Virus record (IMG/VR): IMGVR_UViG_3300031839_001380
Location: 115,847-179,846 of that record
DNA: 64,000 nucleotides
Direction: 5' to 3' (one strand)
DNA from: a virus
Shown one piece after another: positions 50,379-52,781 of this stretch (the first letter of the stretch is position 1; every line of letters starts with the position of its first letter). The translations under genes were made by a program, and so were the position numbers. The notes under the pieces are model-generated. The model did not search any database. It saw nothing but the letters and a program-made list of their open reading frames with translations, and was not told where the DNA came from.

Positions 50379-50400
50379 TAAAAAGTTTTTGTTTTGTGAC

Positions 50401-50841
50401 ATGAGCGTCGTTATTGAACCGACCGTTGAGTGGTCGCCTGAGAGCATGATTGAGGTTGTACTAGGGGAACCTGACGATTTCTTAAAAGTGCGAGAAACGC
50501 TGACTAGAATCGGTGTTGCATCTCGTAAAGAAAAAAAATTATACCAGTCTTGTCATATCTTACATAAGCAAGGTAGATATTTCATTGTTCACTTTAAAGA
50601 ATTGTTTGCTCTTGATGGTAAGAAAGCAAATCTTACTGTTAATGATGTTCAACGCCGCAATAGAATTACACAACTCCTTGCTGATTGGGGATTAATTTCT
50701 GTAGTTGTGGCTGAAATGATTCAGGATATTGCTCCTTTAAATCAGATTAAAGTTTTATCCTACAAAGATAAAGGAAATTGGGTCTTAGAGACTAAGTATA
50801 ATATTGGTCGTAAGGTTAAAGTTGAAGGCGAAGAAGGTTAA
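50401..50841 (+). CDS. regA: RegA translational repressor
   Basis: 146 residues (T4 122). RNA-binding repressor of early mRNAs. MIEVVLGEPDDFLKVRETLT from residue 16 aligns with the T4 RegA start, then LYQSCHILHKQGRYFIVHFK and RNRITQLLADWGLISVV are conserved. The 15-residue extension (SVVIEPTVEWSPES) is absent from T4; the true start may be ATG 50446, which is preceded by a GAGAG sequence while ATG 50401 lacks one. Follows gp62 as in T4. Confidence 0.92.
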   Translation: MSVVIEPTVEWSPESMIEVVLGEPDDFLKVRETLTRIGVASRKEKKLYQSCHILHKQGRYFIVHFKELFALDGKKANLTVNDVQRRNRITQLLADWGLISVVVAEMIQDIAPLNQIKVLSYKDKGNWVLETKYNIGRKVKVEGEEG

Positions 50842-50871: not shown

Positions 50872-50903
50872 TCTCTACGACGGATTCGCTACCAAAGTAG
50901 ATA

Positions 50904-50925
50904 GGGGGCTTGACGCCCCCTTTTT
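50904..50925 (+). terminator. Terminator after regA whose loop carries a -35 box
   Basis: GGGGGC-TTGAC-GCCCCC followed by five T. A strong 6-bp GC stem. The loop base run TTGAC plus the next G is the -35 hexamer of the following promoter. Confidence 0.93.
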
Positions 50926-50938
50926 AATGGTGTATAAT
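50910..50938 (+). promoter_or_regulatory. Sigma-70-type promoter TTGACG-N17-TATAAT overlapping the terminator
   Basis: TTGACG (50910-50915), exactly 17 bases, TATAAT (50933-50938). A near-consensus host promoter whose -35 is in the terminator loop and whose spacer includes the T-run. Transcripts would begin near 50945 and enter the structured leader of the ParB-like gene. Confidence 0.85.
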
Positions 50939-50944
50939 ATGGAG

Positions 50945-51092
50945 GTCAAGGAGGGAAACCACCTTGGCTGCGGTGCTCCCCTTAGTAGGTTCAGGAGTAG
51001 CGGCGATAGGAACCTACTAAATATAATGTCTCAACAGTTTTTGCTACTGAGACACCTAACGGTACAACCGTAGATTTTTATCTAAAGAATTA
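50945..51092 (+). promoter_or_regulatory. Structured 5' leader of the ParB-like gene
   Basis: About 148 bases. Hairpin 1: GTCAAGG (50945-50951) with CCTTGGC (50962-50968), extended by GG-GAAA-CC to a GNRA loop. Hairpin 2: TTAGTAGGTTC (50982-50992) with GAACCTACTAA (51010-51020), 11 perfect base pairs and a 17-base loop containing AGGAG. Then CTAAATATAAT (51017-51027) and hairpin 3: TGTCTCA (51027-51033) with TGAGACA (51048-51054). No known riboswitch class recognised; a cis-regulatory RNA is likely. Confidence 0.6.
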
Positions 51093-52127
51093 ATGACTAA
51101 CGCAGAAAACACCAGAAAAGGTTTTGGCAACACCCTGGATCTCGAAAATCCACAGTTAAAGAACCTACCCAAGCCTAAGCAAAAAAACGCAACATTCATC
51201 AAGTTTTCTTTCCTTGATCTCGATACCGTCGATGAAGAGGATGAGTATTATTGGAACCTTGCTGTCCGGGATGATCAGAACAATTCCTCTCGGATTGAAG
51301 CAATGCAAGTTTCATACCTTAACTATGGATGGCTTTATAGCGATTTCCCCCCTTGTATTGGTACTGACAATCGTCCTAGAGACGGTAGGACTCGTATCCT
51401 TGCAGCAAAGCGTGCTGGAGAGAAGTGGATTATTGTTGCTATCTTCTCATACGATGACAACGGTAGTCCAATCACTAACTACATTTCCAATTCTCTTGCC
51501 TGTCAGCAGCGTCCTGCATCCACTGGTGTATGCCAGGCCGATTTTGTTATGGCAGGGATTGCTTGTGTTAATGCTGGGGAATGCTTGCCAGAGAGATCTG
51601 CAGTAGAAGACCTCGTTTACAATGAACTGCAAGTTGAGAGCTTCTTCTCTCCTCGTGGAGGTGCTATAACCAAGATCGTTAACAAAATCCTTGATGATGT
51701 CTTGGAAGAAGGTACATCTGGTGGAATCACTGTTGTTAGGAGTCGTGACGAGTGGCAAACTTGGTTGTCAAAAGCTGGTTATGTAAAGGGATCTTATATT
51801 CTTTTATCTGTTGACAATCCAACCTATGCTATGAGGGCATGGTGTCAGCACTTGCTTCCACACTTTTCTAAGAACAAGGCAATAGCAACTATTATCCTTT
51901 ATACCAACGCTAAGACTGGTAGTAAAGCCAGGAGGTATATTTCTGAATTTGCAGTAAACCTCCAGTATTACTATACATCTTCATTTGCTATGGTAAATAG
52001 AGCACAGTCTGCTGTAGAGATCAAAGTAGCTGATCCCGCACCATTCCACATTGCTGGAGCAATTCCTCAGATCCATGACAATCACAACATTAATTCTTTT
52101 GAATTGGTAGATATCTCGGACTACTGA
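51093..52127 (+). CDS. ParB/sulfiredoxin-like domain protein
   Basis: 344 residues. NRPRDGRTRILAAKRAGEKW (about 92-111) is the D-G-R-x-R-x-x-A motif of the ParB/Srx superfamily, preceded by YLNYGWLYSDFPPCIGTD. The C-terminal two-thirds have no recognised domain (QQRPASTGVCQADFVMAGI; VYNELQVESFFSPRGGAI). The motif is used by ParB CTPases, nuclease-like phage proteins and DNA-modification factors. It has its own promoter, leader and terminator, implying strong independent expression. Confidence 0.6.
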   Translation: MTNAENTRKGFGNTLDLENPQLKNLPKPKQKNATFIKFSFLDLDTVDEEDEYYWNLAVRDDQNNSSRIEAMQVSYLNYGWLYSDFPPCIGTDNRPRDGRTRILAAKRAGEKWIIVAIFSYDDNGSPITNYISNSLACQQRPASTGVCQADFVMAGIACVNAGECLPERSAVEDLVYNELQVESFFSPRGGAITKIVNKILDDVLEEGTSGGITVVRSRDEWQTWLSKAGYVKGSYILLSVDNPTYAMRAWCQHLLPHFSKNKAIATIILYTNAKTGSKARRYISEFAVNLQYYYTSSFAMVNRAQSAVEIKVADPAPFHIAGAIPQIHDNHNINSFELVDISDY

Positions 52128-52144
52128 TAACCGAATAAAAATGT

Positions 52145-52168
52145 AGGGGTGGCAACACCCCCTTTTTT
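52145..52168 (+). terminator. Terminator after the ParB-like gene
   Basis: GGGGTG-GCAA-CACCCC plus six T (52163-52168): a 6-bp GC stem with GNRA loop directly after the stop of the ParB-like gene. Confidence 0.92.
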
Positions 52169-52176
52169 ATGCCTTG

Positions 52177-52185
52177 TGCTAATAT
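52177..52185 (+). promoter_or_regulatory. Extended -10 promoter for hsp20
   Basis: TGC-TAATAT (52177-52185), an extended -10-like element directly after the terminator. No -35 at the right distance. Transcripts would start near 52191, at the first arm of the hsp20 leader hairpin. Confidence 0.4.
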
Positions 52186-52189
52186 ATAC

Positions 52190-52300
52190 TTGTGGATCAT
52201 ATTTTTCATTCTATTAACTACAAAGAACTTTGTTGTTAATGCGTGATCCACAAACGGATGCCTTCGGGGTCCACACAACATAAACTCGCTTTTAAAGGAG
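52190..52300 (+). promoter_or_regulatory. Structured leader of hsp20 (candidate RNA thermosensor)
   Basis: TTGTGGATCA (52190-52199) pairs perfectly with TGATCCACAA (52244-52253). Inside, ATTAAC (52213-52218) pairs with GTTAAT (52235-52240) and CAAAG with CTTTG. A TTCG-capped hairpin follows (GGATGCC TTCG region, 52256-52272). AAAGGAG (52294-52300) is an excellent ribosome-binding site 6 bases before ATG 52307. CCTT in the TTCG hairpin could pair with AAGG of that site. Confidence 0.55.
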
Positions 52301-52306
52301 CTAAAA

Positions 52307-52741
52307 ATGACCGACCTTACTAAGTATGGTGCGTCTAACATTGACCAATTTTTGGATCGTGTTCATCGCAACAGCATTGGTATGAACGAATACTTTGATC
52401 GTTTATACTCACTACATGAGACCACTACTAACTATCCTCCCTACAACCTAGTATCCATAAATTCTGTAGAGTCCAGGCTAGAGATCGCCCTGGCAGGGTT
52501 TAAAAAGGCAGAGTTGTTTGTCTATACACAGGATGGCAAACTCTTTGTAGAGGGTCAGAAAGAGGACAAGGAGACCGAGACTACCTATCAGCATAAGGGA
52601 CTAGCACAGAGGTCCTTTACGAGGGTATGGACGCTCTCTGAGGATGTAGAAGTGAAGAGTGTAGAATTTGAGGATGGACTCCTTTCAATATGTTTGGCTA
52701 GGATAGTTCCAGAGCACCATCAACGCAAGGATTGGTTCTAA
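52307..52741 (+). CDS. hsp20: Small heat-shock protein Hsp20
   Basis: 144 residues. Alpha-crystallin domain at about 45-130: PYNLVSINSVESRLEIALAG, FKKAELFVYTQDGKLFVEGQ, RSFTRVWTLSEDVEVKSVEF, DGLLSICL. N-terminal helix (NEYFDRLYSL) typical of IbpA-like proteins. Holds unfolding proteins in the infected cell, possibly helping photosystem or capsid protein folding. Hsp20 is a near-universal auxiliary gene of T4-like cyanophages. It has its own leader and terminator. Confidence 0.93.
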   Translation: MTDLTKYGASNIDQFLDRVHRNSIGMNEYFDRLYSLHETTTNYPPYNLVSINSVESRLEIALAGFKKAELFVYTQDGKLFVEGQKEDKETETTYQHKGLAQRSFTRVWTLSEDVEVKSVEFEDGLLSICLARIVPEHHQRKDWF

Positions 52742-52746
52742 ATATC

Positions 52747-52770
52747 GGGGGGTTGATCACCCCCCATTTT
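52747..52770 (+). terminator. Terminator after hsp20 whose loop carries a -35 box
   Basis: GGGGGG-TTGATCA-CCCCCC then ATTTTT. Preceded by CTAAATA (52738-52744) at the hsp20 stop. The loop bases TTGATC form the -35 of the next promoter. Confidence 0.9.
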
Positions 52771-52781
52771 TATGGTATAAT
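52753..52781 (+). promoter_or_regulatory. Sigma-70-type promoter TTGATC-N17-TATAAT overlapping the terminator
   Basis: TTGATC (52753-52758), 17 bases, TATAAT (52776-52781). Same architecture as at 50904-50938. Start of transcription near 52788, 16 bases before the ATG at 52804. Likely drives the Sm-like genes, gp43, uvsX and gp41. Confidence 0.82.

Follow-up and report, generated by a model that had tools for sequence, protein, structure and literature searches.

A terminator hairpin that probably carries the -35 box of the next promoter in its loop, and a structured leader RNA behind it, in a T4-like cyanophage

Downstream of regA in a T4-like cyanophage we find a hairpin with the signature of an intrinsic terminator whose loop falls within the -35 box of a sigma70-type promoter, and on the sequence data a composite terminator-promoter joint is very probably the best explanation of this arrangement. 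A sequence-only reading of this DNA had claimed that the same bases serve as the loop of an RNA fold and as a -35 box in DNA, and comparison supports it: unrelated stems keep TTGA, the T-run, and TATAAT, the enrichment is specific to TTGA, and the spacing stays at 16-17 nt. The promoter is followed by a structured leader RNA, which that reading had missed and which is more novel than the terminator-promoter itself.

The window, i.e., the whole stretch of 64,000 nucleotides that was analyzed, forms the end of a virus record of 179,846 bp (IMG/VR IMGVR_UViG_3300031839_001380) and encodes regA and DNA polymerase B, which are core genes of T4-type phages. The nearest relatives of regA in an annotated phage collection are mostly from cyanophages, and the source is a T4-like cyanophage with a genome of ~180 kb. 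The first element lies between the clamp-loader/regA operon and the genes after it, and a second between hsp20 and the phrog_431/DNA-polymerase block (Table 1); both thus separate gene blocks, in keeping with the proposal that the element ends one operon and starts another.

Table 1. Positions in the window of the two elements, the leader RNA, and neighboring genes
Feature	Position	Strand	Basis
regA, translational repressor, final gene of the upstream operon	50389..50841	+	PF01818 (E 1e-44), phrog_242
Terminator hairpin, 7 bp, 5-nt loop: AGGGGGC (50903-50909), TTGAC (50910-50914), GCCCCCT (50915-50921), then TTTT	50903..50921	+	Sequence, folding
-35 box TTGACG (loop and first base of the descending stem)	50910..50915	+	Sequence
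T-run, where the regA operon RNA is predicted to end	50921..50925	+	Termination inferred
-10 box TATAAT, 17-nt spacer	50933..50938	+	Sequence
Leader hairpin P1 (50944-50951 with 50962-50969)	50944..50969	+	First base is the predicted +1
Leader pseudoknot helix (50974-50979 with 50994-50999, P2 loop)	50974..50999	+	Covariation
Leader hairpin P2 (50984-50992 with 51010-51018)	50984..51018	+	Covariation; CM 77.7 bits, G000:166814-166867
344-aa ORF, 3' of the predicted promoter	51093..52127	+	Without Pfam or PHROG match
hsp20	52307..52741	+	PF00011, phrog_432
Second terminator hairpin GGGGGGT-TGATC-ACCCCCC, then ATTTTT	52747..52765	+	Sequence, folding
Second promoter: TTGATC (52753-52758), 17 nt, TATAAT (52776-52781); next ATG 52804	52753..52781	+	Sequence

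The terminator GGGGGC-TTGAC-GCCCCC-TTTTT is present exactly as it had been described, with the two hallmarks of intrinsic terminators, a GC-rich stem (5 bp or longer) and a U-run directly after it. It is one-directional, because its minus-strand version lacks a T-run, and its RNA folds at -14.4 kcal/mol (z -3.05). The promoter said to begin in its loop is confirmed as near-consensus, with TTGACG-17 nt-TATAAT agreeing with the consensus at 11/12 positions; together with the second promoter (10/12), it has the TTGACA/TATAAT-like hexamers and a spacing (17 nt in both) within the 16-18 nt of sigma70-type promoters. The recurrence of the design after hsp20 likewise holds, with a different stem and the same 17-nt spacing, the copy reading CGGGGGG-TTGATCA-CCCCCCATTTTTATGG-TATAAT (52747-52781). 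Elsewhere in the record (G000:C1:47682-47721), beyond the window, a third copy reads AAAGAGGACTC-TTGAC-GAGTCCTCTTT-TTTTGTG-TATAAT, with an 11-bp stem and 17 nt. All three copies share the 17-nt spacer and an exact TATAAT, differ in their stems, and fold as RNA at -14.4, -14.6, and -16.1 kcal/mol. Among the 31 terminator-like hairpins of the record, three have a promoter scoring at least 9/12 with its -35 box inside the hairpin, all with an exact TATAAT.

Upstream of the second copy, we also observe a terminator (52146-52161) and, ahead of hsp20, a leader that contains a long GTGGATCA...TGATCCAC stem (within 52140-52300). A short segment here (52122-52197) shows 83-93% conservation in several contigs. 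The GCCTTCGGGG element of this leader occurs in P-SSM2 too, and a permissive Rfam search gave a weak ROSE-like score, below threshold; from its sequence, the leader is possibly heat-responsive or processed.

The sequence-only reading had proposed a pattern search for recurrence in cyanophages, and a scan of IMG/VR with a similar motif, GGGG-NN-TTGA-NNN-CCCC-(0-3)-TTTT-(3-9)-TATAAT, retrieved at least 120 viral contig stretches, and only 3 once the loop word was changed from TTGA to GATT. The 120 matches listed comprise 66 distinct sequences, and the spacer is 17 nt in 74 of them and 15 nt in 19. The latter include a subclass GGGGGTTTGAGACCCCC...TATAATAACTTCAGTT (L017, L018, L029-L031, L048, and others), which may represent a different promoter type or a shifted -35 box. 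A further control with TAATAT as the -10 box (26 matches) was rejected as background, being contaminated by at least 10 loci that are true sites reading TATAATAT. Across 84,980 bacterial and archaeal species, each represented by one genome, the motif matches only 5 times, which indicates that the design is typical of phages.

Matches to a 40-base probe place the design in numerous phages of Synechococcus and Prochlorococcus, and also in unrelated Enterococcus phages. The loop-type element is present in S-CAM1, S-PM2, and P-SSM2; a scan of terminator-like hairpins did not find it in Syn9, S-CRM01, T4, or RB49, and it is therefore not universal among T4-like phages. All matches in T4 and RB49 are weak (9/12) and have the -35 box in the descending stem. 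Enterococcus phage VD13 (Saphexavirus; L174-L176) resembles our cyanophage in that 5 of 10 terminators place TTGACA or TTGACG over the loop, 17 nt from a TATAAT-like -10 box, but it is an unrelated siphophage with a Firmicute host, and its design appears, from the sequences, to be convergent.

The site 3' of regA allows the element to be compared among relatives. A terminator is found there in 36 of 80 viral contigs, and 14 of these 36 have an overlapping promoter. Several of the stems are unrelated (cacccTTGACagggtg, gaaggACTTGACAccttc, gagggtTGACCaccctc, and gggggcTTGACgccccc), and TTGA, the T-run, and TATAAT at ~17 nt persist with them. In other relatives (e.g., L396, L400, L407, and L433), the terminator is followed instead of TATAAT by TATAAATA or TTAAATAG, which we take to be T4-type late promoters, suggesting that the terminator persists where the promoter class has been exchanged. 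The P-SSM2 element reads GGGGGACTTGACACCCTC-T7-ATGC-TATAAT, and behind it stands a manA RNA (L152 1547-1744, 181.6 bits) in place of the leader described below, so that one joint seems able to take different leader RNAs.

We propose that polymerase arriving from the clamp-loader/regA operon transcribes GGGGGC-UUGAC-GCCCCC-UUUUU, that the RNA folds, and that transcription would stop near 50924. In double-stranded DNA, TTGAC would act as the -35 box and the T-run as spacer of a host-sigma70-type promoter, with initiation near 50944 giving a new mRNA that begins with the structured leader (a 5'-terminal hairpin and a pseudoknot); early timing is suggested by the host-like promoter. The leading edge of a polymerase stopped near 50924 would cover the -10 box and +1 of the next promoter, and since these footprints overlap, the two events, arrival and initiation, should not occur together. 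The joint may also be used for recombination, as papers citing them propose for promoter-early stem-loops (PeSLs).

PeSLs, known from T4-type myoviruses, combine a promoter and a terminator in one motif (Arbiol 2010, 10.1093/gbe/evq006; Comeau 2014, 10.1093/gbe/evu129) and are here compared through the descriptions in citing papers. As so described, they share with our element a terminator stem-loop and an early-type promoter within a single intergenic unit that recurs in the genome of a T4-type phage (three copies here), apparently where gene content changes; cyanophage S-PM2 is reported in these sources as PeSL-poor. The differences are in geometry: the -35 box occupies the loop here, whereas KVP40 (aaagggTTGACtacggtcagcccttt-CTTG-TATTAT) has it in the ascending stem, and RB49 has hairpin-like repeats in the spacer between -35 and -10, without a T-run. 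The element thus matches PeSLs as these descriptions define them, and a -35 box in the loop is at most a new variant; we found no report of this loop geometry in a literature search that covered few subscription papers.

The cassette may alternatively be kept mainly as a recombination joint for module swapping, the role for which PeSLs are cited as mediators of shuffling in T4-like phages (PMC4503421, as far as this citing source goes), with the overlap a by-product of compactness; we regard this as a tentative reading, possible though the less probable one. Homology between relatives and the window does stop at the element, at the end of TATAAT (50938-50939) in L056/L082 (88.7%) and L038/L087/L368 or at the end of the leader RNA (51016) in L013/L086/L364, and restarts in L038, L087, and L368 only at 52256, upstream of hsp20, with different genes following regA in different relatives. 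A further break occurs just inside the second element (52773), in a few relatives. These breakpoints agree with the elements being module borders, as judged from sequence in few independent cases. The stems differ, however, leaving ~20-30 nt of shared homology, and recombination without selection on the promoter would leave the conserved TTGA and its 16-17-nt spacing unexplained.

It is improbable that the terminator is real and its TTGA coincidental, with an extended or strong -10 box alone driving the promoter, as perhaps in many cyanobacterial promoters. The hairpin does lack TTGA in 61 of 80 distinct terminators with TATAAT behind them, so a -35 box in the loop is optional, and the loop design is absent from the majority of terminators of these phages. 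Against coincidence, the loop-scrambled form is nearly absent, one genome carries three copies, and TTGA is enriched in a second test set of 522 terminator-like hairpins from cyanophage loci outside the matches of the scan pattern. Hairpins with TTGA numbered 50 with a downstream TATAAT and 36 without (odds ratio 6.4), an association that holds when identical inner hairpins are collapsed, given that related sequences are not independent, although p weakens from 1e-13 to 2e-4. TTGA occurs in 17 of 73 distinct cyanophage terminators with TATAAT after them versus 29 of 337 others, while the other 11 permutations of TTGA reach 0-4 of 73 and none is enriched before TATAAT. The distance from TTGANN to TATAAT is 16 or 17 nt in 48 of 53 combinations, with 0-36 allowed.

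A hairpin at the 3' end of an mRNA also stops 3' exonucleases, and this, with the T-run-less repeats inside the RB49 promoter spacer, would favor a promoter-regulatory cruciform or RNA 3'-end stabilizer instead of a terminator, a reading made very unlikely by the T-run directly after the stem in the three copies and the listed relatives, which is the intrinsic-terminator signature, and by the single direction of the hairpin.

Behind the composite joint, the structured leader (50944-51018; CUGCGGU RNA) starts 5 nt past the -10 box, at the predicted +1, and comprises P1, CUGCGGU-NNUCC-CCUU, P2, and a pseudoknot from the P2 loop. Two pattern scans retrieved at least 119 and at least 120 contig stretches, and blastn found the leader in 59 annotated records, all from cyanophages or marine viruses. 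An alignment of 41 diverse sequences has standard pairs in 99.5% of cells, with 75 cells of two-sided changes versus 18 in shuffles, occurring in both P2 and the pseudoknot, and a covariation score of 0.433 versus 0.158 when shuffled and at most 0.09 when slid. P1 starts exactly 5 nt after the -10 box in 64 of 73 scorable cases, and its first base is a purine in the examples listed, which would be expected of an RNA with its 5' end at this position. A P2-based model finds the leader in this record and in P-SSM2, with no match in Syn9, S-PM2, S-CAM1, S-CRM01, T4, RB49, KVP40, or VD13.

The window gave no Rfam match at gathering thresholds, and the leader matches no family at gathering or permissive thresholds. 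Permissive searches excluded manA and other Rfam families as its identity, weak matches to SNORD39 and STnc50 at the element are attributed to chance, and a tRNA within the spacer was rejected. Like manA RNA (RF01745), wcaG, glnA, and PhotoRC-II, which are cis-regulatory RNAs, it is a structured cyanophage leader, but none of these families hits it, even with permissive thresholds, and a literature search that covered few subscription papers found no report of it. Between the leader and the 344-aa ORF (51025-51077), we observe a strong TGTCTCA...TGAGACA hairpin and another, short stem, ACGGT-ACA-ACCGT, followed by ATTTTT, which from their sequence could be an attenuator behind the leader RNA.

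Genes behind copies of the leader encode PurM, PsbA, PstS, peptide deformylase, phrog_431/483/552 proteins, and small unknown proteins, and some copies sit 5' of tRNA genes. Because it precedes such different early genes (purM, psbA, pstS, and others), the leader would more likely be a general module than a sensor of one metabolite. On balance, we lean toward a three-part modular cassette of cyanophages, consisting of a -35-loop terminator, a promoter, and an undescribed RNA class with a +1 hairpin and a pseudoknot, which would serve as a general 5'-end protection or expression module.

The joint is a space-saving design in which the loop of a terminator would form half of the start signal of the next gene, placing the same few bases under selection for both an RNA fold and a DNA-protein contact, and a simple word pattern now finds such operon joints in uncultured cyanophages. 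The leader RNA that follows is supported by covariation, common in cyanophages, and absent from Rfam, and its defined predicted start site and many unrelated downstream genes make its role in the stability or translation of early phage mRNA directly testable.
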